A stretch of DNA of 47,611 nt from an uncultured Fibrobacter sp. (GCA_946402415.1 CAMIWK010000005.1:1-47611), one strand, 5' to 3'. Shown: positions 12,205 to 40,833, counted from the first letter of the stretch. Made by a program: numbers and translations. Notes: a model not told the origin generated them from the sequence alone.

Positions 12205-13236
12205 ATGAGCAAAAACAAGCAGAAGAAAACCAAACCCATCCGCAAGAAACCCATCCCCGAATCGTTGCAGGGGCAAGTCTATCTGGATCCAAAATACGAC
12301 ACCGGCTTCAAGGAACTCTTTGACAGCGAGGACGCCCTCAAGGACTTTTTAGACGGAGTCCTACAACTGGAAGGTAATGACAGAATCAAAAGACTCTCCT
12401 TCACCTTCGACAAGACCATAACCATACGCTCTGCCCGCAGCAAGAAGGTTATCCTGGACATCTTTGCCACCACGGGGACAGGGAGGTTCATTGATATAGA
12501 GATGCAGAGGGCGGGACACGACTTCTTTATCGACAGAGTCATCCTCTACAAGGCATTCCTGATTATCAAGGGCAAACAGGAGATGGAACGGTCCAAGGAG
12601 TTCCTGGCGCTCAGCAAGGATGTACGGGAAAACAAACGGTACGAGTTGCCGGAAGTCGTCTCAATTTGGATTTGCGACTTCGACTTGCCCGAGGCCAAGG
12701 AAGGAGAATACATTGATGAATGGAGCCTTTATAGCCGCAACGCACTGAAAAACGGTAACACCGCACCCGTTTTCACGAAAAATAAATATATTATGATAAG
12801 TCTGCCCAAGTTCAAGAAATCCGCTGGCGAGGTCAAGGACTCTGTAGATGCCTGGCTGTACCTGCTGAACCACGCCGGTGACGGCAAGGAACTGCCAGAC
12901 TTCGGCAAAGATGTCCTTGGGGAAGCCCTAGAACGCATACGGGTAGACAATGCAGACGACGAACTCTTAGCGAGGCAGGAAAGAGACATGATGACACGGG
13001 AAGAGATAGATACTATCATTGCCAGCGGTATACGTCGCGGCGTTGACGAAGGCTTAGCCAAAGCCCGTGAACAAGTCCGTGAAGAAGCCCGTGATGAAGG
13101 CCGTGCGGAGGGCCGTGCGGAAGGCCGTGCGGAAGGCATAGACATCCTGGAGTCCCTTGGCGTGTCAAGCGACCTGATTGAAAAGGCCCGGAAAATCGCC
13201 GCAGAGAAAGCCACGGAGACTCCTAGCAAGCTGTAG
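12205..13236 (+). CDS. Rpn family recombination-promoting nuclease / putative transposase (PD-(D/E)XK), copy 1
   Basis: LDPKYDTGFKELFDSEDALKDFLDGVLQLEG, VILDIFATTGTGRFIDIEMQRAGHDFFIDRVILYKA; C-terminal (RAEG)n repeats. Confidence 0.85.
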   Translation: MSKNKQKKTKPIRKKPIPESLQGQVYLDPKYDTGFKELFDSEDALKDFLDGVLQLEGNDRIKRLSFTFDKTITIRSARSKKVILDIFATTGTGRFIDIEMQRAGHDFFIDRVILYKAFLIIKGKQEMERSKEFLALSKDVRENKRYELPEVVSIWICDFDLPEAKEGEYIDEWSLYSRNALKNGNTAPVFTKNKYIMISLPKFKKSAGEVKDSVDAWLYLLNHAGDGKELPDFGKDVLGEALERIRVDNADDELLARQERDMMTREEIDTIIASGIRRGVDEGLAKAREQVREEARDEGRAEGRAEGRAEGIDILESLGVSSDLIEKARKIAAEKATETPSKL

Positions 13237-13290: not shown

Positions 13291-13309
13291 ATTTGCAGGA
13301 TGTGTGTTT

Positions 13310-13357
13310 TATGCTGCCTAGGTAAAGGGAAGGCTCCCTGATTGAAGCGGGGAGCCT
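13310..13357. repeat. left 48-bp inverted-repeat copy (partner 35768-35815), including terminator of left giant gene
   Basis: TATGCTGCCTAGGTAAAGGGAAGGCTCCCTGATTGAAGCGGGGAGCCT; 44/48 to the reverse complement of 35768-35815. Confidence 0.9.
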
Positions 13358-19300: not shown

Positions 19301-21261
19301 GGGTCGTCTACGAGGAACTTGGAACCGTCGCATCCTTCATCACTTTCTTCCCAGATGTTGAAACAGTCTTCCATTACAGACTCGGCACAGGCAAACTCTC
19401 TTTCATCGGGCATGGTATTTGACACCGTACCGTTGGCCCTGAACCAAGGCGTCACGCGGCAATCGGGGCGGTAGGTATCACCTTGCTTTTTCTTGCAGTA
19501 TGGAGAGCCCGTTGCCTTACCTCCATTCATGTCGTAGTTATAGCCGTTGTAGTTTTTCAGGTCGTAGAAGACATTGCCACCCACAATGTAGGCTCCTATT
19601 GGCGTTGGAACCTTAAATTTTGAATTGATTTGTCCTTCGTCCAATCTCCATACATCGTAATAGAAGTTATAGTCGCTATCGTAATTTAGCTGCATCCATT
19701 GCGCATTATATTGATCGGCGGCAATCCAATATCGCCAATCGGAATTATTGTACACTTTAAAATCAACATCGGTTGTGCCACCGGGGTAATACATGGCGTA
19801 TTTGTTGTCGCCTGCTGAAATCTGGTACTGATTGTAGGGCTTGTAGGTGCTGTCTCCCCAAAAATGCCAACCATTGTCGAAATATTCCACGTAAAAGGTT
19901 TTATTTCCGTTGCCTAGCCATGGCTCATAATTTGTTGAATTGCCCCAGGAGCCACAAATGTCCTTGTTGCTTGCGCTTACAGGATTATTATCTGTTCCTC
20001 CAACGCCCTTTCGAATTTGCCATTTATCTCCTGATGACTTCTGCGATGAGCAATATTTTCTGGATCCTGATATTTCCCTGACCCCCTTGTTTTTGAGGGA
20101 ACTGTTGAATGTTGCCAGGGATATGGCGCTTGCGATATAGGCTGTTGACGAGGAGTCTCCAAGGATGATTTTTTCGTAACTGCCTTGGTTGTCGCTGGTG
20201 TTGACTAAACGTCTTCCTGAACCATAGTTTTCAATTGAACCGTACCAAAGGTTTCTGGGCCCCGGCATCCACACGTTCCCATTTACAACGAAGGGATCCG
20301 TGGTTGCCTTTGAGACAATGGCACCGGAGTCGGAGACGCACAGGTTACCTCCGATTCTTGTTGCTCGGTCGCTGGCATCTTGGGCGGTTTGGTAGAATCC
20401 GTTTACGGTCATGTTGCCGTCAATAATCATGGATCCCGTACCGCTATGTTTGCCATCCCCGTTGAAGTAGACGTTGCCGAAGGCCTTTTTGATAAGTCCG
20501 TCGAAGTTTCCGCCTACATAAAAGTCAGTTGTTGTAATACCGTTATTCTCAATGGACGCATTGCCGCCAATACAACCGGTTTGTCCTATTTTCAAGTCGT
20601 TACCCGATAGGGAGATGTTACCCGTCACAATCCAGTTGTTGTCTACCTCTGGAGGGTTTCCGCTCCAGTTGCCGTTTACCACTGCTGATGTCATTACCAC
20701 CTTGCCTGCGGAGGTATACGACCCACCATAGTACGCGAAATTGAAGTCGATGTTTGCGTGGTGCTGCACTTGTGGTATCGTTACCTGGTACAGACCGTCC
20801 ACGTTCAAGATGGCCACCTCGTTATGGTAGGCTGCAGCTACTTCATTTCCGTTGATCTCATTTTTTCGGGCAAGACCTTGAGACACAATTTTTAGCTTAT
20901 AAGTAGTGTTTTGAACGTTTACTCCAGTAAGCCATACGTGGAAATCCTGCCCATTCCGCTGCAGGGAGCGAAGACGGCTATCCAGGTTTATCGACTTGCG
21001 AGTGCCATCAGGGAGCTTGTTTTCGGCACTCATGTACTGCCTAATGAGCGCGCCCACGTCGTTGCCATGGAACGTCATCCAGGTGCGGGCATTGTCAATG
21101 CCGGCAACGGCACTCTGGTAGGCCTCGCGTTGCATCATGCGGCTGCCGCTGGAGCGGCCTTCGCTAGATATCCATTTGTAAGTGGCTGTGGCGGCGATGG
21201 TGGCCACCAGCATAAAGAGAAGTACTGTGACAAGGGAAACGCCCTGTTTTCCGAAATACAT
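13387..21261 (-). CDS. giant PilX-N-like modular surface protein (2624 aa), left copy
   Basis: N-terminus KQGVSLVTVLLFMLVATIAATATYKW; Gly- and Ser-rich linkers, Cys-rich Ig/PKD-like modules, terminal DVPSGGSVQIHCW; paralogous to 28051-35691. Confidence 0.85.
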   Translation of the reverse strand: MYFGKQGVSLVTVLLFMLVATIAATATYKWISSEGRSSGSRMMQREAYQSAVAGIDNARTWMTFHGNDVGALIRQYMSAENKLPDGTRKSINLDSRLRSLQRNGQDFHVWLTGVNVQNTTYKLKIVSQGLARKNEINGNEVAAAYHNEVAILNVDGLYQVTIPQVQHHANIDFNFAYYGGSYTSAGKVVMTSAVVNGNWSGNPPEVDNNWIVTGNISLSGNDLKIGQTGCIGGNASIENNGITTTDFYVGGNFDGLIKKAFGNVYFNGDGKHSGTGSMIIDGNMTVNGFYQTAQDASDRATRIGGNLCVSDSGAIVSKATTDPFVVNGNVWMPGPRNLWYGSIENYGSGRRLVNTSDNQGSYEKIILGDSSSTAYIASAISLATFNSSLKNKGVREISGSRKYCSSQKSSGDKWQIRKGVGGTDNNPVSASNKDICGSWGNSTNYEPWLGNGNKTFYVEYFDNGWHFWGDSTYKPYNQYQISAGDNKYAMYYPGGTTDVDFKVYNNSDWRYWIAADQYNAQWMQLNYDSDYNFYYDVWRLDEGQINSKFKVPTPIGAYIVGGNVFYDLKNYNGYNYDMNGGKATGSPYCKKKQGDTYRPDCRVTPWFRANGTVSNTMPDEREFACAESVMEDCFNIWEESDEGCDGSKFLVDDPLITDSLAYLPYATKGCAASITTWPQSGFETTLNNCYKENAEDDTKRDANLYNGYLVVHITGGSPGQNYNPDANTPLKGKFIIVVDNRLQAGQNGLPRTTADTKVFLFLRNGANYVQQIVEHYFIYTNKNIGESGQLNLTGTLYAPARACATTKFQSSILNFDQALVQDLTDAGVICQNDGSGGCGGGGNEGDGEGGNAAGGGNLEVIDGGKDSYYISMAPQLGVTVETQYAGRENLIMGDDGNTPSLDPSFIVLPRIIYLPRDPYGKLSDYYSIVPLNGSDLTSNKVNVQCAAGLPAGDLYNEAAGVLLDQKVYRCNASATVPGYSNVPFWVVVNGVLGSAPQVSFVETVQEMSPTGTAQVHANIPAHATPITVLVACPTSTTSGWSYQMNEEYEPHLNNGVCSFTFPQGAEGQLKLFDVTTDGASNGTMFFQLLGGEGYAVTWPFISELHVSNLATINRVNPSDEEIDEYCNALPDDCPAAGHRGSLEWPDCPVDSIWVEPSIFAAIKDTNNSWEVPAGGTGTLTLEAKTISSCVVIIPLTDNALDRSTIEADKIYTLKAIAKARKSSVKVGFVGDVGSGNNPHVTIDANTRSLTCYYNEVKDNNPKACTMDLYSGETVNVSILKSDGENENFNYWKCENNGGITCPTTEPITSSNYTSFIIKDNKAVLYAHFGEVDKHCFFDEFKEGGVECRSGNNKYCIDKCGNAVDDVCVNAIEGGSFTNSKWHLIEGTLSDIEDTYESISIDNAASRRSSRSTREAVKVMSTVEAGLRGTLKALVQLPKVTSSFGKNSPKIAKSGFLLHSNATGTEFLMLNVFVNTEGKVEASLCPNAGTENCLSALPKRDGAALSASPSSMVMVEAILTDSSTLELIVFSGNYYETPDTYTTSIKLYNLPESYANRNHEYVGFSMADPNFKIYGIGWSSDDYGADGCWDTYPTVKCSFSAVATDGVIPTETTVEPWVGHSGWFDSKSCTPIYYYDNGTDACSGQAGSEVSCPSSGYYFSNIGAGQHGYRDNGVDVKAAKAWLNCFSTDNKVVAWAAGTQRAHCGMFWTGKFTECTSHADLGSLSAISSGGTEGTITLTGTVNLRGSTLNISLENPNNSQMEVWLLSKNNTWGADDFASNAERFSGTTASFDVVESFADGAQGFDPENVKQVVIKNLGDGTVSNVSVSSSCKNAVGISNCQVSYNEANSRWEVSADVSNKSKVSGYAVTGQVASSTVDAASTSEQPSLWTSGTSVDRATWYIDHNPYESYQGSTFNFSASITNASGETISTTCTPAVTIGSISCSDATSSNIASGAAWPAFNFKLNNCPQNSCDYEILFDDGLLSGNTACTDGPCSGSGGGNQGLSKTKSGNAEECTTEGGCSHSYEVRSSNDDKPFTPCNVSFKVLPLSSSSSAEESSSSSVASSSSTNVTTNCSFTNSDYKPGEDAYFQFTNLKSGGNPISGLSYKLVAPTGSGISDITGTTNNNSVIQLSKITVGTNTGGTYTLYINNTQACTATLTLKDFSPSNCKYENGQFKAHANNPCTGSACTWRIMKGTDTPSTGTAVASGSWTNNDINPSISGKGKYTLWINDIKYDDCSITIKPDVTCPSTKKSFTINQTATFKAASLSNCDGGCDYRLERTSGGVAFASSDAGTYTSASTGVTFAENPSVAEDNIAYTFTVFDHDDHTIKDTCQGVMAFTAGATCAEITQSMGGNGTVTGTLSNGCAIITIDKICTGMQIEIQSCKGKTVTWNGAPITLNNNDNGYWSGTNPAPNLVNRLDVPDCPTSKINKVYLDNCSSVSPASTAPSIASCPSSAVTVKPGTSIPMPMTVSNCKVVGGCSYTISASGQSTISGTTYGTSVPPFTGATVDKTTITYTLSVSNSAGSATPCSFSVTYDSDAREEANASGNNTFGPGKYKLYCNGQSGSKNMQTGNCNGGTSGKAWFDPAISFYNDYGGCNGQASVTFPLNLDVPSGGSVQIHCW

Positions 21262-24101: not shown

Positions 24102-25112
24102 TTAGATTTTTTCCGCCCACACCCGCATATCGGCGGGCATGATATGAGTATAAACGTCCAGCGTCATGGCGCTGGAACTGTGCCGCAAAAGCCGCATGGC
24201 GATAGCCACCGGGCACCCTGCCGCTGCAAGGTTCGTGGCAAAGCTATGCCGGAACTTGTGATTCGATGCCCAGCCCGCAATCCCGAGCTTCGTACACACT
24301 TTTTTTAGCTCCCGAAGGGACTTCTGCTTGTCGATTTTTAGCCCATCTCCCAGGCTCCCGAACCTTGCCAGTTCCCGTTTTAGGCGGGTGCTTATGGGGA
24401 GCACCGCAAATTTGTCGCTCTTTCCGATAACCTGGAATTTGTCCCCCAGGATATCGGCCTGCCGTAAACCCGCCGCTTCGTGAATCCTAAGCCCCGCATA
24501 GGCCATCAGGGCCCAAAGCATCCGCATCTCCCGCGAAGGGGCCGCCGCCACGATACGGTCCACCTCCTTCACGCTCCAAGAATCCCTCTCCACCTTGGTT
24601 ACCCGCCTAAAATCCACGAACTTGAATGGCTGAACCCGCTCCACCCTGTGCTCCCGATACACCCAGCTCAGAAAGCATCCGCAAACACGGCAACGGTGCC
24701 GTGCCGACTTCCCTCGGAGCGACGCATAGTATTTCCGTGCCATTCGCTCGTCGATAGCCAGCAGGTCTCCCACCCGCTGGGCATTGCACCACCCCGAAAA
24801 ATGTTCCAGAATCCGCCTGTACTGTTCCGCGCTGCCCATCTTCAGGTTCGGCCGCTCCAGAAACTCCCGCACAGCCCCTTCCATAGGCACCCCCTCCAGC
24901 GCCTCCCCGGGCATGGCAAAGCGCAGCACCAAAAGCCTCTGCAAGCATTCCTCGGCCACCTTCTTGCAAGTGGTCCCAAGCGACCTGTACGAAATCACCC
25001 CGCCCGAATTTTCCCGGAGGTACCAGGTCTTTATCCCGCGACTCTTGTGCCGCTGTACCACCGACAAACGCTTCCATTCCATGCCCCAAATAATAGGCAA
25101 AGCGGTGTGCAC
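24102..25112 (-). CDS. tyrosine recombinase / phage-type integrase
   Basis: R (AYAGLRIHEAAGL), K (VIGKSDKFAVLP), HKFRHSFATNLAAAG, LLRHSSSAMTLDVYTH: complete R-K-HxxR-H-Y set; start may be the internal ATG at 25082. Confidence 0.9.
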   Translation of the reverse strand: MHTALPIIWGMEWKRLSVVQRHKSRGIKTWYLRENSGGVISYRSLGTTCKKVAEECLQRLLVLRFAMPGEALEGVPMEGAVREFLERPNLKMGSAEQYRRILEHFSGWCNAQRVGDLLAIDERMARKYYASLRGKSARHRCRVCGCFLSWVYREHRVERVQPFKFVDFRRVTKVERDSWSVKEVDRIVAAAPSREMRMLWALMAYAGLRIHEAAGLRQADILGDKFQVIGKSDKFAVLPISTRLKRELARFGSLGDGLKIDKQKSLRELKKVCTKLGIAGWASNHKFRHSFATNLAAAGCPVAIAMRLLRHSSSAMTLDVYTHIMPADMRVWAEKI

Positions 25113-28050: not shown

Positions 28051-31000
28051 ATGTTCAGACAAGAAGCAAAATCCGGTATATCCCTTGTCGTTGTGATGCT
28101 TTTCATGCTGGTGGCTACCATCGCGGCCACGGCCACCTACAAGTGGATTACCAGTGAGGGAAGCACCAGCGCGAGCCGCATGATGCAACGCGAGGCCTAC
28201 CAGAGCGCCTTGGCGGGCATCGAGGATGCCCGTGCCTGGATAACGTTCCACGGCAATGACATGGGTGCGCTGGTCAAGCAGTACAGGGACAACATCGACA
28301 AGTACAAGCAGGCCTACCCGATAAGCCTAGATACCCTGCTCCACCCATCGATGAGGGCAGGTTCGATGCAGAAGTACCATGTGTGGATTACCGACATGGA
28401 AGTGGATACGGCTATGCATAGGGTAAAGCTGAAACTCCTTTCTAGCGGTGAATCCCGTAACGGTTCGGTCCATAACGAGGTGGCCTTGCTGAATGTGGAC
28501 GGACTTTACCAGGTGAAACTTCCCAGGGTCCAGCGTGTTTCCCACATCAACTTCGACTTTGCTTACTATGGCGGTTCTTACAGGACGTCAGGATCCACGA
28601 CGATGACTTCAGGAGTGGTGAACGGGAACTGGAACGGCAACCCTCCGACCGTGGAGAGGAACTGGATTGTGACGGGAAATGCCACCCTGTCCGGAAGCGA
28701 CCTGGCAGTCGGCGCAACGACCTGTATTGGCGGAAACGCCTCTATCCAGAACAAAGGTATTACCACGACTGACATTTACGTGGGGGGAGATTTCTCGGGA
28801 GTTGTCAATGCCGCCGGGAGTGCTTACTTTAACGGGGACGCCGACTGCGGTAACGGTTCTATGCGCATTGGCGGGAACATGACTGTGAATGGATACTACA
28901 TGACCAACCAGAGCGCCTCGGGTTATTCGACAAGAGTTACTGGTAACCTGTGCGTCGATTCTGCGGGTGCCATTGTTTCGGAAGCAACCGGTGATGTATT
29001 CCAGGTGAACGGGAACGTGTGGATGCCCGGTCCCCAGAACCTGTGGTATGGTGCGGTTGAGGGGGTTGGCTGCGTATGCAACATTTATAGTCCGGCATGG
29101 GCCAGTGACGCGTCTCATCTGGTCTCTTCCAATGTTCCTTGTACAAAATCGGGTGCTGATTGGAGTGAAGGGAAAAACTATGTTCAGACTGGCTGTACAT
29201 CTAGGCGCTTGGCCGGCACTGGAAGCAATGGCGTCAGTGACAACCAGAACTCCTATGAGAAGATTATCTTGGGGGATTCCTCGTCCCTTGTCTATATTGC
29301 GGGAGTCATATCCTCTTCGACCTACAACAGCACCAAAGCTAATTATTCCATCACGGAAACCAAAAGCAAGAAGTATTGCCCGACCCCAATCTCGTCTAAC
29401 GATGAATGGAGCATTAGGAATGGCTCTGGTGGTGGCGAATCTGGAGACATTCTGATACCTTCGTCAACCAAGAATATCTGCGGTACTTGGGGGACTCCTC
29501 ATTATGAAAACTGGAGTCCGTCTGCCTACTATGTACTGTACACCCGAAATTGGCAGGATTGGGACTATGGTTCTTACAAGCCTTATTCATCGGTCACGGC
29601 GGCCGCCGACAAGTACGCCATATACTACACCGGTGGCGTGACGGATGTGCGTTTTGGCTCCTACAACCTGTCGGATTGGTACGTTCTAAACAATTGGGTT
29701 AACGACCAGCAGAGACAGATACGGTTGGATTATGCCGGAGAAGACTATGGGCGTGGTACTAACCCTATTTACCGTTTTTTCAAGCCTTCTACCGCTAGCG
29801 ATCAGTTCCCCTGGAAATTTACCTCGCCCGTTCCCGTTGGTGGGTATCTTGTAGGTGGAGACAGCATCTTTTACAACGTAGGTACGGGAGTCTACAAGGG
29901 CTACAACTACGACATTGATGCAGGTAAAGCGACAGGTTCGCCGTATTGCAGAAAGGGTAGCGACCAGTACCGCCCTGTGTGCGGTGTGACCCCCTGGTTC
30001 AAGTCTAGTGGAACGGTGTCAAGCGTCATGGACGAGAGGACTTTTGCCTGTGCCGAGTCCGTAATGGAAGACTGTTTCGAAATCTGGGAGCCCAGCGCCA
30101 ACGGCTGTGATGGTTCCCAGTACATTGTCGAAGACCCCCTGGAAACGTGCCATAACGATTACGAGCCCTATGCCCATGTGGGGTGTGCCGCAAATATCAC
30201 CACCTGGGGGCAGAACGGTTTCGAGACAGCCCTCAACAACTGCTATAGCCAGACTGTCCAGGACCCGGCTCTTAGGGAGTCGAACCTGTATAACGGCTAT
30301 CTGGTGGTGCACATAACCGGAAGCTCGCCGGGGTACAACTACAACCCGAGTACGTCTACCCCCTTGAATGGAAGGTTTGTTATCATCGTGGATGACCGAG
30401 TTAAGGCCCAGAACGGCTTCCCCAGGACTACCTCCGATACGAGGGTGTTTATGATGCTCAATAGTGGGGCCGAAAAGATCCAGGGCGTGCTGGAACATTA
30501 TTTCATATACACCAAGCAGAACACTGGTACCTCTGACCAGCTGACGCTGACGGGAACGCTGTATTCACCTGCGGCTCTCTGCGTCACGAACCATTTCCAG
30601 TCCTCTACGCTGACTTTCGACCAGGCGCTTATCGATGACTTGAGCGGTGCGGGAATTATCAGTAGCGATGGATGTGGCGCCGGTGGTGGCGGCGGAGAAG
30701 GGGGCAGTGAAAGCAGCCACTTTGAAGTACAGGACGGTGGCGATGACCCCTACTTTATTGCCATGTCCCCGCAGCTTGGCGTGACGGTAGAGACCCAGTA
30801 CGAGGCCAGGGGAGAAGACCTGCCCTCTGCGGATGACGCTGCCAAGATGAAGCCGACACAGTCCTTCATTGTGCTGCCGAGAATCATCTACTTGCCCAGG
30901 AACCCCTATGGCGAACTTAAGGACTACTTTAGCGTTGTCCCCTTGAATGGTTCCGGGTTGATACGGGAAAACGTTGGCACGCCTGTGTGCGCGGCTGGGC

Positions 31001-34000
31001 TTCCCGCCTCGGGCCCGCTTTTTGCCAGGCCTAGCGGTGGCGTGCTCTTGAATGAGAGTGTCTACAAGTGCGTGGCCAGCGCAAGCGGACATCCGGATAT
31101 CCCGTTCTGGGTGGTTGTCTCGGGAATGTTAGGGCAGACCCCGCAGGTCTGGTTTACCGAAGATGCCCACGAGATGCCCTCTACGGGAACCGCTCAGGTG
31201 AAAGTGGATTATGAAGATCTTTCTGGAGGCAGTATAACGATTCACGTCACGCAGCCTTCATCGCTGCCTGGATGGACCATTGAACCGATTAATCCCGATG
31301 GAGATGCCTGCCCCAATGGTATCTGCTCATTCACCCTAAGTGGGAACGGCGGACCCACAGCCTTATTTAACATTCAAACTGCTTCGGCAAGCAACGGGTC
31401 GATTACGTTCCAGCTGATCGGGGATTCCACCTACGCCCTTGCTTCTCCCTGGAGCTCAACGTTCTACATGTCGAACGTGGCGACCATTAACCGTGTGAAT
31501 CCCTCGGAAGAAGAAATCAATGACTATTGTTCTTCGGCTCCCGATGATTGCCCCGAGGTGGGCCACCGCAGTGCCTCGGAATGGCCGGACTGCATTACCG
31601 ATTCAAGCTGGGTGAAACCTTCTGGCGGTAATCCCGTCATTGTAGACACTAACAATTCCTGGACTGTAGCTGCGGGAACCTCGAATTTGACCCTTGTCAA
31701 GGATAAGGACATTGACAACACTTGCGTGGTCATTATCCCCGGATATGGGGATTCCACATTCATTCCAGGCCCGATTGAGGCAAATACCTCTTACTACCTC
31801 AAGGCCATAGCCAAGGCCCGCAAGAGTTCCGTCAAGGTTGGGTTCAAGGGCGACGTGGGTGACGGCAAGAACCCTCACCTGCTCATTGATGCGGACACAC
31901 GCTCACTCACCTGCTACTACAACGACGTCAAGGACAGCGTACCCAAGGCCTGTACCATGGACCTGTACAACGGCGAGACTGTGAGAATTTCCATTGCGAA
32001 GAGCGACGGACAGAATGACAACTTCAATTACTGGAGGTGCGAGAACAATGGGGGCAATACCTGTCCCACCACGGATCCTATCTCCAGTGCCACGTACAAC
32101 AGCTTCACCATAAAAGACAACCTGGCGATTATCTACGCCCACTTCGGTGAGGTGGACGAGCACTGCTTCTTTGACGAGTTCAAGCAGGGTGGTGTCAGCT
32201 GTAACGCGAGCAACAGCAAGTACTGCGTAGACAAGTGCGGTAACGGGGCAAACGACGTGTGCCCAAGCGCCATCGAGGGAGGTGGCTACACCAACTCCAA
32301 GTGGCATCTGGTTGAAGGCTCCTTGGCTAACATCGAGGACACCTACGAGAGTATCTCCATAGACAATGCTGCCTCTAGGAGTAGCAACCGCGCGAATCGC
32401 GAGGCGGTCAAGGTTATGAGCACCGTACAGGCGGGAGTCCACGGGACCCTCAAGGCCCTGGTCCAGCTGCCCAAGGCTACCTCCAGTTACGGGAAGACTT
32501 CTGCAAATATCGCGAAGTCTGGCCTTATGCTCCGTTCCAACGCCACGGGCACCGAGTTCCTGATGCTGAACGTGTTCGTGAACAACTCGGGTAAGCTGGA
32601 GGCCAGGCTCTGTCCCAACGCCGGCACGGAGAACTGCCTTGACTCGATTCCCAAGAATCACGGAGCCTCCCTCTCTGTCACCCCGTCTTCTATGGTGATG
32701 GTGGAGGCCCAGCTTACGGACTCCACTCTTGAACTGACGGTGTTCTCCGGGAACTACTACGGTACTCCCGACACCTACACTACATCTTTCAAGTTGAACA
32801 ACCTGCCCAACAGCTACAACGACCGTACCCATGAGTACGTGGGCTTTAGCATGGCAGACCCGAACTTCAAGATTTACGGCATTGGCTGGAGTAGCGAGGA
32901 CTATGGCGCCGACGGTTGCTGGGACACCTACCCGACGGTCAAGTGCTCCTTCGCCGCCAAGGCGGAACAGGGGGTTATCCCCGTCAACACTACGGTGAAA
33001 CCCTGGGTCGGTCACTCAGGATGGTTTGACAGCAAGGACTGTACGCCTGCCTACTACTACGACAACGGTACTGATGCCTGCGGAGGCCATTCCGGCTCCG
33101 AGACGGCCTGCTCCAGCGATGGCTACGTATTTAGCAGTGACGGTGCGGGTCAGCACGGCTACCGCGTCAACAATGGCGTGGATGTCAAGGCCGCCAAGGC
33201 CTGGTTGAACTGCCTTACCAACGATGACCAGGCCGTGGCCTGGGCCGCGGGAACGAACCGCGCCCACTGCGGCATGTTCTGGACAGGGGAGTTCTCCGAG
33301 TGCACGAACCATGAGAACCTCGGGACAATATCTTCGATTAGCTCCGGAGGCGGTGTAGAAATGATTACCCTGGTGGGTACGGTCAACCTACGTGGCTCCA
33401 AGCTGAACTTCGCCCTAGAAAATCCGAACAGCAGCGAGGTGGAGGTGTGGCTCCTTAGCGAGAATGCCACCTGGGGCGAGAGTGGTTTCGCCAGCAATTC
33501 CGTAAGGTTTACGGGATCCAGCGCAAGTTTCGACGTGGTAGAGACCCTCGCCGAGGGCGCCCAGGGCTTTGACCCCGAGCACGTGAAGCAGGTGGTGGTC
33601 AAGAATCCGGGAGCCTACTCGGTGACCAATGTTTCTGTTACCTCGACGTGTAAGAACGCGGTGGGTATTTCCAACTGCCAGGTCTCGTACAACAGTTCCG
33701 AAGGCCGGTGGGAAGTCACCGCAGACGTGAGCAACAAGGGCAAGGTTTCTGGCTACTCCGTAACAGGCCGGGTGGGCTCTTCTGACGTGGTTACCTCGAC
33801 GGCCGAGCCCTCGTTCAGCGATGACCATGCCACCTGGAACATAAGCCATAACCCCTATGGCTCTTACCAGGGTAGCACCTTTGACTTTACCGCCTCTGTC
33901 ACCAATGCTAGTGGCGAGACAATCTCGACTACTTGCGAGCCTCCTGTGACTATTGGCAGTATTACCTGTAGTAACGCTGCCTCTAGCAACATAGCTAGCA

Positions 34001-35691
34001 GCGCTGCATGGCCTGCGTTCACCTTTAAGCTGAACGACTGTCCGCAGAACAGTTGCGATTATGACATCTACTTCGACGGCAGCATCCTGAGCGGCAACGA
34101 TGCTTGCGTTCAGGGGTCTTGCTCCGGCTCGGGTGGCGGTCAGCAGTCGAGGACCAAGAGCGGGAATGCGGAGGAATGTAACACCAACGGTGGCTGTAGC
34201 CACTCCTACGAGGTGCGGAGTTCCAACGCGGAGAAAAACTTCACGCCCTGTAATGTGTCGTTCATCGTGCAGAAGAAGGTTACCACCGAGGTGACTGCTA
34301 CGTGTAGCGTGGGCGGAAGCTTGTATCAGGGACAAGGTATCCAGCTGAATGTGTCGAACATAACCAATCTCAATAACCAAGGCAATATGACATGGAGCCT
34401 GAATGGTTCTACGCAGGTTTTGACGTGCAATTCGGGTGGCTGTTGGAATAATGCAATGAATGCGCCGACAACGCCAGGTACCTATTCCTATACGCTTACG
34501 TACAGTGGCGGTGAAGTTTGCTCGGGAACTGTAGTTATTGAACCGGCTCTTACTTGTTCCGTGAATCCCACGACATTGAGTAAGGGAGATAACTATACGT
34601 TTACGGGCTCAAACAATGTAAATTGCTGGAGTTGCACTTATACATACGATAGCGGAAGCGAAGGAAACCATAATCCTACAGATGCAATTACGAAAGCCGC
34701 GTCGACTACAGGCACAAAGACCTTGACGCTAAGCTGTACCTGCAACAACAGTATTACGGCTACCTGTTCCAAGGATATCACCATTAACCAGGCTCCGCCT
34801 GCCTTCCAATGCGAAACTAACAAGTCGGCAACGGTAAGTACCTCCATCTCGCTTACTCCGCAGAATCTGACGGGTTGCGAGGATGGCTGTAGCTACACCG
34901 TTGCAGGGACTTCTGTGACAGGAAACGGATATACAGGTGGCGCCCTGCCGAGCTTCACTGGACCGTCGTCGGCAGGCACGCAGACTTATACCGTGAGCCT
35001 CACGAATTCTGCAAATACCACGTCCCATGACTGCTCTGTCACGTGGACAGCGGTAAGCAGTAGCAGCGCTGCTCCCGCAAGTAGCAGTAGTGCTGGCGGC
35101 GGGTGCCATTGTACAGATTACTGCGATGAAGGCTGCGGTTCTATTATCACGGCCACAAATAGCGATTACTACGGAGCCAATAGATGTATTTTCATGACCT
35201 CAGCAAATAATCTCAATTTAACCCAGGCCGGGATTACGGTAAACGGAAGTTCTGCAAATATTTATTGCACGAGCTCCGGGGATTGCAGTTCTAAGCTAGC
35301 ATCTTATCCCCAAAAGGACGGCGGGTGGTATGTGTATGTACCCAATGTATGGGTGCATGTTGAAATTTCCGGTTCCAATCCCTGCTCCGGCGGAGGCGGT
35401 GGCGGTGCAAGCTCCAGCAGCGCTGCTGTAAGTAGTAGTTCTGGTGGTGGCGGCGGTGGCGGCGACTACGATAATGCAACCGTGGGGACACAATACAATG
35501 GACCTAAGAAGATTCAGTATACAAGTGGATCGGCGTGCCAGATTAGTGCATCAACTAGTGGTTGGACAGGTTGGATGTCAGAGGGCAGTGCCTATAACAA
35601 TTGGGGAACGGGTGCTCTTGTTTCGTTGAGTCCGACTATAAAAATTGATGTTCCCAGCGGGCAGTGGTTTAAATTTGATAATTGCTGGTGA
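28051..35691 (+). CDS. giant PilX-N-like modular surface protein (2546 aa), right copy
   Basis: SGISLVVVMLFMLVATIAATATYKWITSEG; conserved core with left copy; Ser/Gly linkers; terminal DVPSGQWFKFDNCW. Confidence 0.85.
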   Translation: MFRQEAKSGISLVVVMLFMLVATIAATATYKWITSEGSTSASRMMQREAYQSALAGIEDARAWITFHGNDMGALVKQYRDNIDKYKQAYPISLDTLLHPSMRAGSMQKYHVWITDMEVDTAMHRVKLKLLSSGESRNGSVHNEVALLNVDGLYQVKLPRVQRVSHINFDFAYYGGSYRTSGSTTMTSGVVNGNWNGNPPTVERNWIVTGNATLSGSDLAVGATTCIGGNASIQNKGITTTDIYVGGDFSGVVNAAGSAYFNGDADCGNGSMRIGGNMTVNGYYMTNQSASGYSTRVTGNLCVDSAGAIVSEATGDVFQVNGNVWMPGPQNLWYGAVEGVGCVCNIYSPAWASDASHLVSSNVPCTKSGADWSEGKNYVQTGCTSRRLAGTGSNGVSDNQNSYEKIILGDSSSLVYIAGVISSSTYNSTKANYSITETKSKKYCPTPISSNDEWSIRNGSGGGESGDILIPSSTKNICGTWGTPHYENWSPSAYYVLYTRNWQDWDYGSYKPYSSVTAAADKYAIYYTGGVTDVRFGSYNLSDWYVLNNWVNDQQRQIRLDYAGEDYGRGTNPIYRFFKPSTASDQFPWKFTSPVPVGGYLVGGDSIFYNVGTGVYKGYNYDIDAGKATGSPYCRKGSDQYRPVCGVTPWFKSSGTVSSVMDERTFACAESVMEDCFEIWEPSANGCDGSQYIVEDPLETCHNDYEPYAHVGCAANITTWGQNGFETALNNCYSQTVQDPALRESNLYNGYLVVHITGSSPGYNYNPSTSTPLNGRFVIIVDDRVKAQNGFPRTTSDTRVFMMLNSGAEKIQGVLEHYFIYTKQNTGTSDQLTLTGTLYSPAALCVTNHFQSSTLTFDQALIDDLSGAGIISSDGCGAGGGGGEGGSESSHFEVQDGGDDPYFIAMSPQLGVTVETQYEARGEDLPSADDAAKMKPTQSFIVLPRIIYLPRNPYGELKDYFSVVPLNGSGLIRENVGTPVCAAGLPASGPLFARPSGGVLLNESVYKCVASASGHPDIPFWVVVSGMLGQTPQVWFTEDAHEMPSTGTAQVKVDYEDLSGGSITIHVTQPSSLPGWTIEPINPDGDACPNGICSFTLSGNGGPTALFNIQTASASNGSITFQLIGDSTYALASPWSSTFYMSNVATINRVNPSEEEINDYCSSAPDDCPEVGHRSASEWPDCITDSSWVKPSGGNPVIVDTNNSWTVAAGTSNLTLVKDKDIDNTCVVIIPGYGDSTFIPGPIEANTSYYLKAIAKARKSSVKVGFKGDVGDGKNPHLLIDADTRSLTCYYNDVKDSVPKACTMDLYNGETVRISIAKSDGQNDNFNYWRCENNGGNTCPTTDPISSATYNSFTIKDNLAIIYAHFGEVDEHCFFDEFKQGGVSCNASNSKYCVDKCGNGANDVCPSAIEGGGYTNSKWHLVEGSLANIEDTYESISIDNAASRSSNRANREAVKVMSTVQAGVHGTLKALVQLPKATSSYGKTSANIAKSGLMLRSNATGTEFLMLNVFVNNSGKLEARLCPNAGTENCLDSIPKNHGASLSVTPSSMVMVEAQLTDSTLELTVFSGNYYGTPDTYTTSFKLNNLPNSYNDRTHEYVGFSMADPNFKIYGIGWSSEDYGADGCWDTYPTVKCSFAAKAEQGVIPVNTTVKPWVGHSGWFDSKDCTPAYYYDNGTDACGGHSGSETACSSDGYVFSSDGAGQHGYRVNNGVDVKAAKAWLNCLTNDDQAVAWAAGTNRAHCGMFWTGEFSECTNHENLGTISSISSGGGVEMITLVGTVNLRGSKLNFALENPNSSEVEVWLLSENATWGESGFASNSVRFTGSSASFDVVETLAEGAQGFDPEHVKQVVVKNPGAYSVTNVSVTSTCKNAVGISNCQVSYNSSEGRWEVTADVSNKGKVSGYSVTGRVGSSDVVTSTAEPSFSDDHATWNISHNPYGSYQGSTFDFTASVTNASGETISTTCEPPVTIGSITCSNAASSNIASSAAWPAFTFKLNDCPQNSCDYDIYFDGSILSGNDACVQGSCSGSGGGQQSRTKSGNAEECNTNGGCSHSYEVRSSNAEKNFTPCNVSFIVQKKVTTEVTATCSVGGSLYQGQGIQLNVSNITNLNNQGNMTWSLNGSTQVLTCNSGGCWNNAMNAPTTPGTYSYTLTYSGGEVCSGTVVIEPALTCSVNPTTLSKGDNYTFTGSNNVNCWSCTYTYDSGSEGNHNPTDAITKAASTTGTKTLTLSCTCNNSITATCSKDITINQAPPAFQCETNKSATVSTSISLTPQNLTGCEDGCSYTVAGTSVTGNGYTGGALPSFTGPSSAGTQTYTVSLTNSANTTSHDCSVTWTAVSSSSAAPASSSSAGGGCHCTDYCDEGCGSIITATNSDYYGANRCIFMTSANNLNLTQAGITVNGSSANIYCTSSGDCSSKLASYPQKDGGWYVYVPNVWVHVEISGSNPCSGGGGGGASSSSAAVSSSSGGGGGGGDYDNATVGTQYNGPKKIQYTSGSACQISASTSGWTGWMSEGSAYNNWGTGALVSLSPTIKIDVPSGQWFKFDNCW

Positions 35692-35766: not shown

Positions 35767-35795
35767 AAGGCTCCCCACTTCAATCGGGGAGCCTT
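35767..35795 (+). terminator. terminator after right giant gene
   Basis: AAGGCTCCCC-ACTTCAATC-GGGGAGCCTT perfect 10-bp stem followed by TCCTTT. Confidence 0.8.
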
Positions 35796-35815
35796 TCCTT
35801 TACCCAGGCAGCATA
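35768..35815. repeat. right 48-bp inverted-repeat copy (partner 13310-13357)
   Basis: AGGCTCCCCACTTCAATCGGGGAGCCTTTCCTTTACCCAGGCAGCATA. Confidence 0.9.
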
Positions 35816-35975
35816 CAATAGCATTGCGTTCGATACGGAACGCACCGTTTTCTCGTGAGCGGGAGCATGTTTTCTCGCAAAATCCCTCAAAAAAGCTTAA
35901 AAAAGCCTGTTTTACGCGGTGTTCCCCTCCTTTTTCGCTAAAAAAAGGATATATTTAGAGGGAATGAGGTTTACT

Positions 35976-37319
35976 ATGAACAAGAAAATTCTCACAGGAC
36001 TTTCTGTTTTTGCTTTGGTCGCAGGCTTCTGGGCTTGCGGTGATGGTAGCGTCGAGGCTTTGAATGATGACGACCTGACCGTGAAGGGCTTCTTGGAAGA
36101 TTCTGAACTAGATGAAAAGGACTCTACATTAAGTGGCTCCAGTTTTTTCAAGCCGGAGGACGTAGAGGCTGCCAAGACGGCTTGCCTGGAAGATGAAGGT
36201 TGCAAGAAGGCCATGGATAAGGCCACTGGCGAAGAGGTTGTCCCTGAAAGCGAGGCCTCTATACCTACAGCCTATAGCTCTGCTACTCAGACTAATCCGG
36301 GTTCCAGCCAGAGTGGCCCCGTTATCAACCTTTCTTCTGCGCAAATCACGCCTGTCGGGGGCTCCTCCTCTTCGACCGCAGGTGGCAATCAAACCACCAC
36401 TTCCAGTTCAAGCGAGGAAATCGTTTCCAACGGTGATCCCGATGGCTCTTGCAGCCTGTCACCCACCGGAGCCTTGCAGAAAGGCGAAAAGGCGACCTGG
36501 ACGTTTACCAAGGCGACATGGAGCGGCGACATGATTGCCGACTACGAAGGGTATAAAGCTTACAATTCGTCCTTTGAAACAATTGACTGCGTATGGACTT
36601 TGACTGGCTCTGATGAAAAAACAACGACGGTCAAGTGCAGTGAATCGTCTGTGACCGCAACCTACCCGAGTATCGGGTCTTATACAGCCAAGATTAAGGT
36701 AGGTAACAAGGAGCCGCACGATTGCTCGGGAAAGGTCGAGGTACAGGGTACACCTGTGACGGACTGTAAATGCACCGTGGATTCTGCTTCACCCGATGTC
36801 AAGAACGGCGATGTGACGGTTACCTGGACTGTTTCGGGCTGTATGGCTGGTTCTGCTGCCGCAGACATCGGAACTTATACCTGGACAGGGCCTACGGCAA
36901 CCTCTGACCCTTCCAAGGCTACTGCCACTGTTTCTACCAAGGGTGATTCCCAGACGGCCTCGGTGAAGGTTACCAGCACGGAGAACGCCTCCATGAACGT
37001 GACCTGCCCGACGGTGAAGGCTATAAACTCCGACCTGCCGGATTATGAGCTTGTCCAAGGCGAGACTTTGGAAGTTCCTGTGGGCCAATGCGGTGTAGCG
37101 TCTGTTGCCGGAGTTGTTCGTTTTGAACATCCGTATGAAGCATCTGACTGTGATATTGCTTTGACAATAGATGGAACAGAGTACACTAAGACTGTTTCTT
37201 ACTGTAATGTTTATTATGGTGTTCTTCCTTGTGATGGGATTAACGTTAGTGCAGGAACACAGATTTGTGTGAACGAAGTAACATCCTCTTACGGGAAATT
37301 GAAGATGAAGTATAATTAA
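35976..37319 (+). CDS. Ser-rich-linker surface lipoprotein with variable C-terminal domain
   Basis: Lipobox signal MNKKILTGLSVFALVAGFWACGDG; SSSSST...TTTSSSSEE linker; upstream TATATTTAG and GAGGT. Confidence 0.8.
   Translation: MNKKILTGLSVFALVAGFWACGDGSVEALNDDDLTVKGFLEDSELDEKDSTLSGSSFFKPEDVEAAKTACLEDEGCKKAMDKATGEEVVPESEASIPTAYSSATQTNPGSSQSGPVINLSSAQITPVGGSSSSTAGGNQTTTSSSSEEIVSNGDPDGSCSLSPTGALQKGEKATWTFTKATWSGDMIADYEGYKAYNSSFETIDCVWTLTGSDEKTTTVKCSESSVTATYPSIGSYTAKIKVGNKEPHDCSGKVEVQGTPVTDCKCTVDSASPDVKNGDVTVTWTVSGCMAGSAAADIGTYTWTGPTATSDPSKATATVSTKGDSQTASVKVTSTENASMNVTCPTVKAINSDLPDYELVQGETLEVPVGQCGVASVAGVVRFEHPYEASDCDIALTIDGTEYTKTVSYCNVYYGVLPCDGINVSAGTQICVNEVTSSYGKLKMKYN
36662..36742 (+). repeat. 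81-bp inverted-repeat box inside lipoprotein gene (partner 39495-39575)
   Basis: CTACCCGAGTATCGGGTCTTATACAGCCAAGATTAAGGTAGGTAACAAGGAGCCGCACGATTGCTCGGGAAAGGTCGAGGT; 77/81 to the reverse complement of the partner. Confidence 0.95.
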
Positions 37320-37418
37320 AGTTGCGGAATAATTAAGGTTTACTGCAATGTTTGCTAGGAAGCTCTGTTGTTACGTTAAAAATCTAGCTTGAAATTTTTG
37401 CCCATACTCTTCTGTTTT

Positions 37419-37444
37419 CCCTCCCTCCGGGAGGGATTTTTTTT
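37419..37444 (+). terminator. terminator after lipoprotein gene
   Basis: CCCTCCC-TCC-GGGAGGG then ATTTTTTTT. Confidence 0.85.
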
Positions 37445-37449
37445 CGTCC

Positions 37450-37484
37450 GCCTTGTAAAAAGAATCTTTACAAGGCTTTTTTCT
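37450..37484 (+). terminator. second tandem terminator-like hairpin
   Basis: GCCTTGTAAA-AAGAATC-TTTACAAGGC then TTTTTTCT. Confidence 0.8.
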
Positions 37485-37488
37485 CCTC

Positions 37489-37532
37489 AAAAAAGTGTCT
37501 TATTCTGTACGGGGCATTCCGCCTCGCCGTAC
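37489..37532 (+). promoter_or_regulatory. conserved leader of rpn unit, copy 2
   Basis: AAAAAAGTGTCTTATTCTGTACGGGGCATTCCGCCTCGCCGTAC; GTACGG/CCGTAC stem as at 12150-12175. Confidence 0.7.
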
Positions 37533-37556
37533 ACCGGGACGCACCTGGACAAACAA

Positions 37557-38597
37557 ATGAACAATACAAATAATAACGAAATTAAACCCGAATTCACCAT
37601 CGCCACCTCACAAGATTTCTGGGTACAGAGAACCTATGAAGAAATCAAGAAACGAACCTACCTCGACCCACTCTATGACGCCGCATTCAAGGCGTTTCTG
37701 AGCGAAGAACAGGCCCTGATCAGTTTCTTGAACGGAGTGTTCCAGCTAGAAGGCGAAAATCGCATCACCACCGTCACCATCAAGAACACAGAAGTGAACA
37801 TCATTTTCCCGCAAGTCAAGGCGTTCAGGCTCGACATTCGCGCAACGACCTCGACGGGATTCTGCATCAACGTAGAGATGCAGAGAGCAAAGCACAGCCG
37901 ATTCATCGACCGCATTCTACTGCAGCACAGTGCGTTCATGCTTCAGAGCAAGTATGAATGGGACCAGGAATTCTTCAAGGATCCCCAAAAGAACCTTACC
38001 GATGAGGAACGCGCCAGGCGCGAGGAGCTCCGCTATGAGATACCGCCCACCTACGCCATCTGGATATGCGATTTCCCCGTAGAGCGGCAGGACAGTTACC
38101 GTGGCGCCTGGGCCATCCGCAATGAAAAGGGCTTGACAATCACAGACAAGGTGAAGTATATTTTATACGACCTGACGCAATTCAGCAAGACGCTCGATTC
38201 CGTCCAAACCACCGAGGACCGCTGGCTATACCTGCTCAAGCACGCAGGCAAGGCCGATGACCTTCCGGACTTTGGCGATGATGCAATCTCGCAGGCAATC
38301 AAGCGAATTTTGGTGGAGAAGGCGCCGGATAAACTTATCAAGGAACAGGCACGAGACATGGTTTTCACGGAAGAAGAACTGGATCACTTGGCAGCGATGA
38401 AGGTGCGGATCCGCAAGGAAGCCCGCGAACAAGGTCTTGCCGAAGGTCGTGCTGAAGGTCGCGCAGAAGGTCGTGTAGAAGGTCGTGCAGAGGGCCGAGA
38501 TGAAGGGATAGATATTCTGGAGTCCCTCGGTGTATCTGGTGATCTGATTGAGAAGGCACGAAAGATCGCAGCAGAGAAGCAACAAGAACTAAAGTAG
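37557..38597 (+). CDS. Rpn family recombination-promoting nuclease / putative transposase, copy 2
   Basis: YLDPLYDAAFKAFLSEEQALISFLNGVFQLEG, FRLDIRATTSTGFCINVEMQRAKHSRFIDRIL; C-terminal AEG repeats; ATG at 37557 preferred over upstream TTG. Confidence 0.85.
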   Translation: MNNTNNNEIKPEFTIATSQDFWVQRTYEEIKKRTYLDPLYDAAFKAFLSEEQALISFLNGVFQLEGENRITTVTIKNTEVNIIFPQVKAFRLDIRATTSTGFCINVEMQRAKHSRFIDRILLQHSAFMLQSKYEWDQEFFKDPQKNLTDEERARREELRYEIPPTYAIWICDFPVERQDSYRGAWAIRNEKGLTITDKVKYILYDLTQFSKTLDSVQTTEDRWLYLLKHAGKADDLPDFGDDAISQAIKRILVEKAPDKLIKEQARDMVFTEEELDHLAAMKVRIRKEAREQGLAEGRAEGRAEGRVEGRAEGRDEGIDILESLGVSGDLIEKARKIAAEKQQELK

Positions 38598-38625
38598 TTG
38601 CAAGGCTAACTACAGAAAACCCCCG

Positions 38626-38648
38626 CGGACAATTCCGCGTTTTTTTTC
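38626..38648 (+). terminator. terminator of rpn copy 2
   Basis: CGCGGA-CAAT-TCCGCG then T8. Confidence 0.85.
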
Positions 38649-38669
38649 ACGCCTTTATCAAGAAAGAAA

Positions 38670-38693
38670 CCCTCCCCACAAAAATGGGGAGGG
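38670..38693 (-). terminator. terminator-like hairpin after the inverted C-terminal cassette
   Basis: CCCTCCCCA-CAAAAA-TGGGGAGGG perfect 9-bp stem, T-rich on the minus strand. Confidence 0.75.
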
Positions 38694-38716
38694 CTGACCA
38701 AAATCAAGTTATCCTA

Positions 38717-39575
38717 TTACCATGTGTTTTGACAGGATGCTGTTCCGAACACCTTCACCGTAGTACAAGCACTATAGCTACCGGCGGATTGGTTGATTGC
38801 CTTAGGAGTCTCTCCATTGCAGCTAATGGCTCCAGATCCATTACAAACTAGCTGTCCCCTATTATCTGTGTAGGTGATAGTGTATATGTAACCCGATTCA
38901 AGGGTTTCCGCAGCACCTCCATAACTGAGGGAAATGCTCTTCGGTGCCCAGGAACTGGAATTGTCCGTAACAGTGACGTACTGTACGCAAGTCCCACCAC
39001 CAGCAGAACCATTTGCGAGTTCGTACTCATATTCCAGCACACCAGCTTTTGATGGAGTAACGTTAAACGAAGTACCACATTGTCCAGAAGCCCCATCTCC
39101 AGAGAACGAGGCACTCCAGCACGTTCCGCTATATCCAGAAACAGTGAACGTAAAGCTTTCTCCAAGATCAATTGCATTGGGGCTCACAGAGCAGGAGAAA
39201 TTGTCCGGCTGTGTCAGGTCTATGGCTGTCGCCGTCGGGCATGTCACAGTCTTCGAAGCGTTTTCTTTATTGGTGACAACGACGCTGGGGGTTACGGCAT
39301 CGCCCTTGGCCGAGAATGATGCCGTGGCCGTGTTGCTGGAGCCCGTGGCTCCGGTCCACTTGTAGGTAAATCCAGATTCCGTCGCTTCTGTTGCACAATC
39401 AGAGATAGTCCATGTTACCGTTTGGGCTCCATTAGTCACATTCGGAGCGTTTTCATCCACCGAGCACGTACATCCAGTCACCGGCGAGCCCACAACCTCC
39501 ACCTTTCCCGAGCAATCGTGCGGCTCCTTGTTTCCCACCTTAATCTTGGCTGTGTAAGACCCGATACTCGGGTAG
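38717..39575 (-). pseudogene. 5'-truncated, promoterless C-terminal cassette homologous to lipoprotein 35976-37319 (candidate silent cassette)
   Basis: Open frame YPSIGSYTAKIKVGNKEPHDCSGKVEV...SCQNTW; homology begins abruptly at 39575 with no signal peptide or plausible start upstream. Confidence 0.8.
39495..39575 (-). repeat. 81-bp inverted-repeat box inside silent cassette
   Basis: Reverse complement matches 36662-36742 at 77/81 positions. Confidence 0.95.
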
Positions 39576-39624
39576 TTTCCTGCGGGTTTTGGGAAAAAAG
39601 GGCTATTTAAGTATATTTGTTGCG

Positions 39625-40833
39625 TTGCTGTACGAACTTTCCATAGAAAAGCTGGTGCAGGGGGGCGAAGGGCTTGCCCGCCTGCCTGACGGTCGCGTGT
39701 GCTTTGTGCGGGGCGGCCTGCCCGGTGAGCGCTGCCGGGTGGAACTGACCACAGGCAAGAAGGACTTTGCGCGGGGTCGGGTAGTGGAAGTTCTGGAAAA
39801 GAGCGCCGACCGCGCGCATCCGAAGTGTCCGCTGTACGGAAAGTGTGGCGGCTGCAGCCTACAACATCTGGACTCCGCGAAACAGGTTCTGTATCTGGAA
39901 CGTGTTGAGCGGGAAAACTTCAAGCGGATCGCCCACGAGGAACTGCCCAGCGATTTTGTCATCCATCAGGGGGAGCCTTGGGGCTACAGGAATCGGGCCC
40001 GCGTGGTTTACTTGGGCGACCGTGACGGTCGTTGCCGTTTTGGATTCCGCAAGCAGGAAAGCAACGGTGTGGTGCCTATCGAAAATTGCCCTGTACTCAC
40101 TGCCGGACTGAATGACTTTTTGAAAAATGCCAAGCCTGCAGAAATTTTCAAGGGGCTGAAGCACATTCCGAAAGACTTGGAGCTGAACATCTTCGACGAC
40201 GGTACGGGCCGGGTGGCCTACTATTACCGCAGGATGCCTGAGGCCCGTAAGCGTGAATGCTCCGTCAGCACCGTTATGATAGGGGCCCAAAAAATAACGA
40301 GCGATGCCTCTGTGTTTTTCCAGAGTAACCTCTCCCTGTTGCCCCGGCTGGTACAGTCTGTGCGGGAGGCGGTGGACGAGGGAATTGCCTCGGGTGCGGC
40401 GTCTGATGAATGGCTCATAGACCTTTTCAGTGGGGTGGGGTTCTTTGCCGCCTTATTGCAGGATAAGTTCAAGCGGATTACCACGGTGGAGCGGGACGGA
40501 CTGTGCCTGCAGTACGCGAAGGTTAATTTGTCTGCTACCGCTTCCATTGAAAACGTTTCCGCCCCGGCGGAGGAGTGGCTGGTAAAGAACGTGGTGGATA
40601 TTCCCGCCACCCTGATTGTGGACCCGCCCAGGACGGGGCTCCCGCCAGAAGCGCTAGGGGCCATCGTAAAAAGCTCGGTGAACCGGGTGATTTACGTGTC
40701 TTGCGACCCGGTGACTCTGGCCAGGGATTTTGCAAAGTTCAGTACGGCGGGGTTTACCCTGAAACGTGCAGAAGGTTTCGCCTTTTACCCCCAGACGCCC
40801 CATCTGGAAATGTTGTTCGTGCTGGCCCGCTAG
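39625..40833 (+). CDS. rlmD: 23S rRNA (uracil-C5)-methyltransferase, RlmD/TrmA family (start uncertain)
   Basis: TRAM-like N-terminus EKLVQGGEGLARLPDGRVCFVRGGLPGE, CPLYGKCGGCSLQHL, LFSGVGFFAALL, VDPPRTGLP, YVSCDPVTLARD. Confidence 0.85.
   Translation: MLYELSIEKLVQGGEGLARLPDGRVCFVRGGLPGERCRVELTTGKKDFARGRVVEVLEKSADRAHPKCPLYGKCGGCSLQHLDSAKQVLYLERVERENFKRIAHEELPSDFVIHQGEPWGYRNRARVVYLGDRDGRCRFGFRKQESNGVVPIENCPVLTAGLNDFLKNAKPAEIFKGLKHIPKDLELNIFDDGTGRVAYYYRRMPEARKRECSVSTVMIGAQKITSDASVFFQSNLSLLPRLVQSVREAVDEGIASGAASDEWLIDLFSGVGFFAALLQDKFKRITTVERDGLCLQYAKVNLSATASIENVSAPAEEWLVKNVVDIPATLIVDPPRTGLPPEALGAIVKSSVNRVIYVSCDPVTLARDFAKFSTAGFTLKRAEGFAFYPQTPHLEMLFVLAR

Follow-up and report, generated by a model that had tools for sequence, protein, structure and literature searches.

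The DNA analysed here (the window) is a stretch of 47,611 nucleotides that constitutes contig 5 of the assembly of an uncultured rumen Fibrobacter sp. (1.91 Mb, 62% complete), and its kin are other members of Fibrobacter. It carries a lipoprotein gene whose 3' part faces an inverted, silent cassette, with a gene of the Rpn nuclease family (rpn) enclosed between them. C-terminal swapping at this locus is well supported by comparison of related sequences, and the locus is likely to work as a switch that exchanges the C-terminus of a surface lipoprotein, with inversion as the usual step. In the proposed mechanism, the promoter, the signal peptide and the N-terminal part of the protein (N-part) would lie outside a segment of ~3 kb (about 36657-39577), in which two alternative tails would stand face to face with rpn between them. 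Recombination between two inverted boxes would flip this segment, placing the silent tail B instead of tail A behind the same N-part and turning rpn round. The following features were distinguished:

35976-37319, plus strand: lipoprotein gene in the expressed position, an open reading frame with an ATG start at 35976 (447 aa), composed of a signal peptide and N-part (residues 1-227), followed by the box and tail A
36657-36742, plus strand: expressed copy of the box (81-bp match at 36662-36742), an inverted repeat with the core GCAACCTACCCGAGTATCGG, compared in five species, at its outer edge
36660-37319, plus strand: tail A, at present expressed and assigned to class I by homology
37451-37475, plus strand: perfect dyad CCTTGTAAA-AAGAATC-TTTACAAGG, which resembles a terminator, lies between tail A and rpn and is kept ahead of rpn at most of these loci
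37557-38597, plus strand: rpn gene (PF12784, PD-(D/E)XK nuclease) inside the segment, with which it would flip
about 38671-38694, minus strand: hairpin terminator behind the silent tail, recognized from the sequence
38717-39577, minus strand: silent cassette composed of the box and tail B (class II), 286 codons without a start; its orthologue, in expressed position in a related species (L031, see below), is 92% identical at the amino acid level
39495-39575, minus strand: silent copy of the box, forming the other arm of the inverted repeat
39589-40833, plus strand: rlmD-like gene with TRAM and tRNA (uracil-5-) methyltransferase domains, constituting the outer flank, which is common to two other species (L030 and L031)

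The lipoprotein signal peptide has its cysteine at residue 20, and the box begins at residue 228/229. Homologues of the lipoprotein were found in 75 of the 151 genomes searched; neither the N-part nor the tails received a domain assignment from Pfam or NCBIfam. The 81-bp inverted box described in an earlier, sequence-only reading of this DNA was confirmed by alignment: 36662-36742 (plus strand) and 39495-39575 (minus strand) share 77 of 81 bases (95% over 81 nt, E 2.3e-31), and both copies are in the same reading frame. Without gaps the inverted repeat extends over 124 nt at 85% identity (36659-36782 and 39455-39578), and no third copy of the box occurs in the 1.91-Mb assembly, which contains two copies in all. 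The DNA identity between the expressed and the silent copy is 93% over codons 0-28, 64% over codons 28-40, 54% over codons 40-130 and 44% beyond; past the box it is therefore lower than the 60-65% estimated earlier by eye. The silent frame runs through 286 codons from 39577 to a stop at 38717, and the first in-frame ATG, GTG or TTG is an internal GTG at 39538, in agreement with the earlier description of the minus-strand copy as a 3' cassette lacking a plausible start; the hairpin terminator that had been placed after it is also present.

A search of the 151 genomes with the lipoprotein as a query revealed four more that contain a full gene and a backwards fragment starting from query residue 223-225: L030 (G016, SRR12081294_bin.20), L031 (G069, RUG11387), L032 (G049, SRR12081299_bin.46) and L033 (G071, SRR11784291_bin.31). 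Together with the window they represent five species, hereafter the carriers, whose draft genomes are 62-95% complete. The order N-part gene, tail, rpn or its remnant, and backwards tail is thus found in four other Fibrobacter species; a scan of the named genomes for further carriers yielded none beyond the same four. L030 and L031 have the rlmD flank of the window, while L032 and L033 have a different flank, common to both. In each of the five carriers a single N-part, with the start and signal outside the segment, is accompanied by opposed C-parts sharing an in-frame repeat. An assembly artefact was rejected as an explanation, because the same order was found in all five assemblies and L033 lacks any long repeat that could be misassembled.

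In all five species the repeat sets in at essentially the same codon (GCA|ACC TAC GCG; the window reads ACC TAC CCG), with a small change right at the onset in the silent copy of the window, and the junctions are known to the base. Its inner end varies: besides the 124 nt at 85% in the window, it spans 386 nt at 95% in L030, 61 nt at 98% in L032, 25 exact nt followed by about 77% in L031, and 15 exact nt in L033. The core GCAACCTACGCGNNNATCGG occurs 7 times in 80 Fibrobacter genomes, every time at these boxes, yet this exclusivity alone would be no proof of a recombination site, because the core also encodes the conserved motif TYAxIG. A dyad within the box of the window (CCCGAGTATCGGG) was rejected as a recombinase site, since it is missing from the other species.

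Classification of the tails by homology over their whole length showed that they occupy exchanged positions. Class I comprises the tail in expressed position in the window, those that are silent in L030, L032 and L033, and the one tail of each of two further loci, L034 (RUG12637) and L035; class II comprises the silent tail of the window, the tail in expressed position in L032, and the two tails of L031. Between the window and L032, the expressed and silent classes are therefore reversed. Moreover, the shared rlmD locus of L031 has in expressed position a tail 92% identical (285 residues) to silent tail B of the window, and the N-part ahead of it is 73% identical to the N-part of the window. 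The product of an inversion in the window is therefore already a gene of a sister species. A 2-kb block of rpn and silent tail is 90% identical between L030 and L033, two species in which it lies at different chromosomal loci, and the tails seem to move between loci together with rpn.

The silent tails appear to be maintained. Their frames are open to the stop in 5/5 carriers, over 224-307 codons; the decay of the cassette by frameshifts in relatives, which had been named as an observation that would speak against a switch, was thus not found. For tail B, comparison of the silent copy of the window with the expressed copy of L031 from codon 40 onward gave dN 0.035 and dS 0.434 (ratio 0.081). 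If drift is neutral while the tail is silent and the two branches are equal, the silent phase of tail B would cover no more than about 16% of its branch (0.035/0.217). Support for maintenance is weaker for the silent class I tails, with dN/dS 0.55 between L030 and L033 over the distal 113 codons. The open frames, the expressed position of tail B in L031 and its low dN/dS characterize the C-parts as functional. These data bear directly on the idea that the minus-strand copy is a truncated, functionless 3' end of the gene that arose by inverted duplication and is now degenerating. This would account for the missing start, and in L034 a deletion seems to have removed the silent part, but past the box the silent and expressed tails share just 44-54% of their DNA and are thus no duplicates, an orthologue of the silent tail stands in expressed position in L031, and all five frames are open, with visible selection. 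We regard such a duplication as extremely improbable.

Two pairs of loci show that the DNA between the boxes is itself inverted between species. L030 and L031 are collinear on both sides, at 85% in the N-part and 91% in the outer box and rlmD, whereas the intervening rpn segment is inverted (94.5% over 1163 nt). The second pair consists of L033 and L034, which share their outer flank (87%). L034 has the order N-part, box, class I tail and rpn (partly deleted), and the block from the start of the box to the end of rpn is inverted as a unit between the shared flanks of L033 and L034; in L033 the N-part is joined to another tail than in L034. The N-side alignment ends at position 4170 of L034 and the inverted alignment starts at 4157, therefore the N-side breakpoint lies within a 14-nt overlap inside the core. 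The possibility that L034 represents an ancestral empty site was rejected: its rpn lacks the customary terminator and passes from the stop codon directly into the flank, which resembles a deletion, and L034 is probably a deletion derivative. Since the lipoprotein gene is followed by rpn in the same direction in L035, L038 and L040, the opposite orientation of rpn in L030 and L033 is probably derived.

The boxes are mosaic. Up to codon 28 the silent box of the window is 93% identical to its own expressed box versus 78% to the L031 orthologue, while over codons 28-40 the values are 64 and 100%, respectively (p about 2e-4 for both identity switches). The two L030 copies are 93-100% alike for about 360 nt and unlike thereafter, and the switch point differs genome by genome. 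Comparison of these mosaics, with their genome-specific switch points, shows that within individual genomes sequence has passed between the expressed and the silent copy, whether by conversion or crossover. The comparison of species thus shows tails that change places, a middle segment in both orientations, and boxes of one genome that recombine.

One-way gene conversion or import would give a partly similar picture: the silent copy would serve as a donor, or horizontally acquired tails would enter via the shared box, with no programmed inversion. Mosaic boxes with genome-specific inner ends are the expected trace of such copying, fit segmental transfer from the silent to the expressed copy, and are compatible with either copying direction; the direction of rpn is the same in the window, L031 and L032 though their tails differ, and the 90% identical block at two loci (L030 and L033) also agrees with import. 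What this explanation leaves unaccounted for is the inverted middle segment in L030/L031 and L033/L034, with breakpoints at the box, and the relationship of the window to L032, which is a reciprocal exchange of classes and not two copies of one tail. Conversion or import is therefore considered unlikely, and we infer from the alignments that a flip rather than one-way copying is the usual step.

Several observations nevertheless weigh against an invertible switch. (i) The rpn gene or its remnant points away from the N-part in the window, L031 and L032 despite their differing tails. A single flip of the whole segment fails to explain these three loci, because it would turn rpn as well, and extra events are needed. 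Possible ways around this are that rpn was replaced, that it flipped on its own, or that the tails were exchanged by conversion; the rpn of the window is a different allele (about 42% amino acid identity to the others), with a conserved leader (37419-37549, 82-89%). Some tail swaps would thus need more than one flip. (ii) The longest exact runs inside the box of the window are at most 32 nt, which is short for homologous recombination. (iii) The orientation of L030 is possibly misassembled, as its repeat is 386 nt long. (iv) No tyrosine recombinase gene (PF00589) was found on the cassette contigs of L030-L033, and no recombinase adjoins the cassettes.

With the invertible switch as the preferred reading, candidate enzymes were considered. 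RecA is present in 5/5 carriers. No IS110/Piv-type gene (PF01548) was detected in any of the five carriers, and no serine recombinase gene (PF00239) in four of them, including the genome of the window, although absence from such incomplete drafts is weak evidence; L033 has serine recombinases on contigs 86 and 89, which are not its cassette contig. The candidate nearest to the switch within the window is the following:

24102-25112, minus strand: tyrosine recombinase, a possible enzyme for the switch, which is 12 kb away; two divergent pilX-type operons flank it

Its orthologues (at least 88%) occur in 6 of 80 genomes, 4 of these being carriers (4/5 carriers versus 2/75 other genomes, p 5e-5). 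This association may be explained by shared descent: among the nearest relatives p is 0.24. No core site above chance was found near the recombinase gene and its orthologues, and it was not adopted as the cognate enzyme but may be a candidate. Inversion may proceed by RecA-type homologous recombination over the boxes or through a tyrosine recombinase encoded elsewhere. As the defining enzymes were sought and not found beside the locus, it is not assigned here to any recombinase-defined family.

The enclosed rpn gene is a clear member of the Rpn family (COG5464/PF12784), with E 9.5e-26 and 91.4 bits against PF12784 (curated cut-off 27.4) and 54.4 against TIGR01784 (cut-off 52.1). Its 3' part contains 12-nt repeats, corresponding to the C-terminal four-residue repeats described for Rpn proteins. 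These are reported to be horizontally mobile, very unlikely to be transposases, and to have a toxin-antitoxin role in phage defence (PMC10327210). Rpn proteins are not known to have a published role in programmed inversion. The sequence-only reading had proposed a self-contained unit and pointed to reports that Rpn proteins stimulate recombination; rpn would then be its engine, the nuclease making the breaks between the tails that lead to inversion. It is true that all five carriers have rpn or what is left of it between their tails and that overproduced Rpn raises RecA-independent recombination in Escherichia coli, but RpnA is a nonspecific endonuclease (PMC5350276). Furthermore, rpn genes are abundant (1-16 PF12784 genes per genome in 14 Fibrobacter genomes), one follows the lipoprotein gene in relatives that have no cassette, and the rpn of L032 is a dead remnant while the boxes of this locus are still 98% alike over 61 nt. 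An Rpn-driven switch is accordingly very improbable, and rpn is most likely a resident or passenger defence gene. A second rpn gene in the window (12205-13236, plus strand), which also has 12-nt repeats, resembles the type of rpn found in L030, L031 and L033 more closely than does the rpn of the switch. The dyad at 37451-37475 precedes the rpn of the lipoprotein locus in several species and is absent before this second rpn (12205); it may be a terminator or a recombination site.

Structural models of tails A and B are beta-rich and of moderate confidence (mean pLDDT 73 and 78). The best fold matches of tail A (Foldseek) are three entries of CBM_E1, a cellopentaose-binding module (TMt 0.59-0.61, E 4e-3 to 8e-3), and are weak; no sequence match was found to PDB chains or in Pfam. 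The fold search with tail B was set aside as not interpretable, since it gave generic immunoglobulin-like multi-domain matches alone (TM about 0.2). The tails may bind different targets, perhaps plant polysaccharides, and it is a reasonable guess that the locus would swap polysaccharide-binding tips; alternatively, the function may be phage-receptor variation. Fibrobacter play a major part in fibre degradation and live attached to plant matter. If the proposed switch is true, a clonal population would gain two adhesion or phage-receptor states through the outer end of one lipoprotein. During growth of F. succinogenes on cellulose, many lipoproteins and some pilins change (PMC6851124).

The window also encodes two PilX-like giant proteins (13387-21261, minus strand, 2624 aa; 28051-35691, plus strand, 2546 aa), whose operons are divergent mirror images of each other and include pilin-like genes. 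The two giants are 56% identical over about 2280 residues and then have differing C-terminal tips, and the two pilX halves are joined by long inverted DNA repeats (72-79%). A terminator-like 51-nt inverted repeat (13307-13357 and 35768-35818, 90%) lies just outside both giants, its copies 22.4 kb apart, and a larger inversion might take place there. Similarity was also found between the expressed tail of L033 and the end of the minus-strand giant of the window (32% over 111 aa, E 6.6e-10). A speculative scheme for rumen Fibrobacter, which we hold to be unlikely, is that PilX-like giants and lipoproteins share domains serving as modular, switchable fibre-binding tips, swapped by inversion at boxes, perhaps via the recombinase between the pilX operons. 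If true, this would be a programmed adhesin switch altering substrate binding in a cellulose degrader.

A search of a collection of papers found no report of an invertible switch of this kind in Fibrobacter, with papers that mention both F. succinogenes and phase variation judged by title. Several known systems resemble the locus. The type 4 pilin locus of Moraxella (tfpQ/tfpI) contains an invertible ~2-kb segment with facing C-terminal regions, another gene between them, a constant N-part outside, and the IS110-like Piv recombinase gene adjoining. The plan of the Fibrobacter locus is the same, but it concerns a lipoprotein instead of a pilin, with no IS110-type gene found in the carriers. In the shufflons of IncI plasmids (PilV, Rci), several short segments are inverted at 19-bp sites by an adjacent tyrosine recombinase. 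C-terminal segments would be swapped by inversion in both cases; however, two tails and longer boxes are present here, and the locus has neither an adjacent tyrosine recombinase nor short specific sites. In Borrelia vlsE and Neisseria pilE/pilS, silent partial genes share boxes with the expressed gene, and many donors are copied one way. The Fibrobacter cassette is likewise a silent, box-sharing partial gene, but a single donor faces the gene and inversions are seen between species. In the phase-variable element UU172/UU171 of Ureaplasma, inversion at an in-gene inverted repeat joins one N-part to alternative C-parts that are not expressed by themselves, in about 1-2% of a population (PMC3047005). 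Switching was shown there, whereas for the Fibrobacter locus reversible switching within a population is what we infer from the sequences; the proteins are unrelated, and in both a surface membrane protein has an inverted repeat inside its gene. The plan is thus known from Moraxella pilin, Ureaplasma UU172 and the shufflons, and for Fibrobacter it is apparently new.

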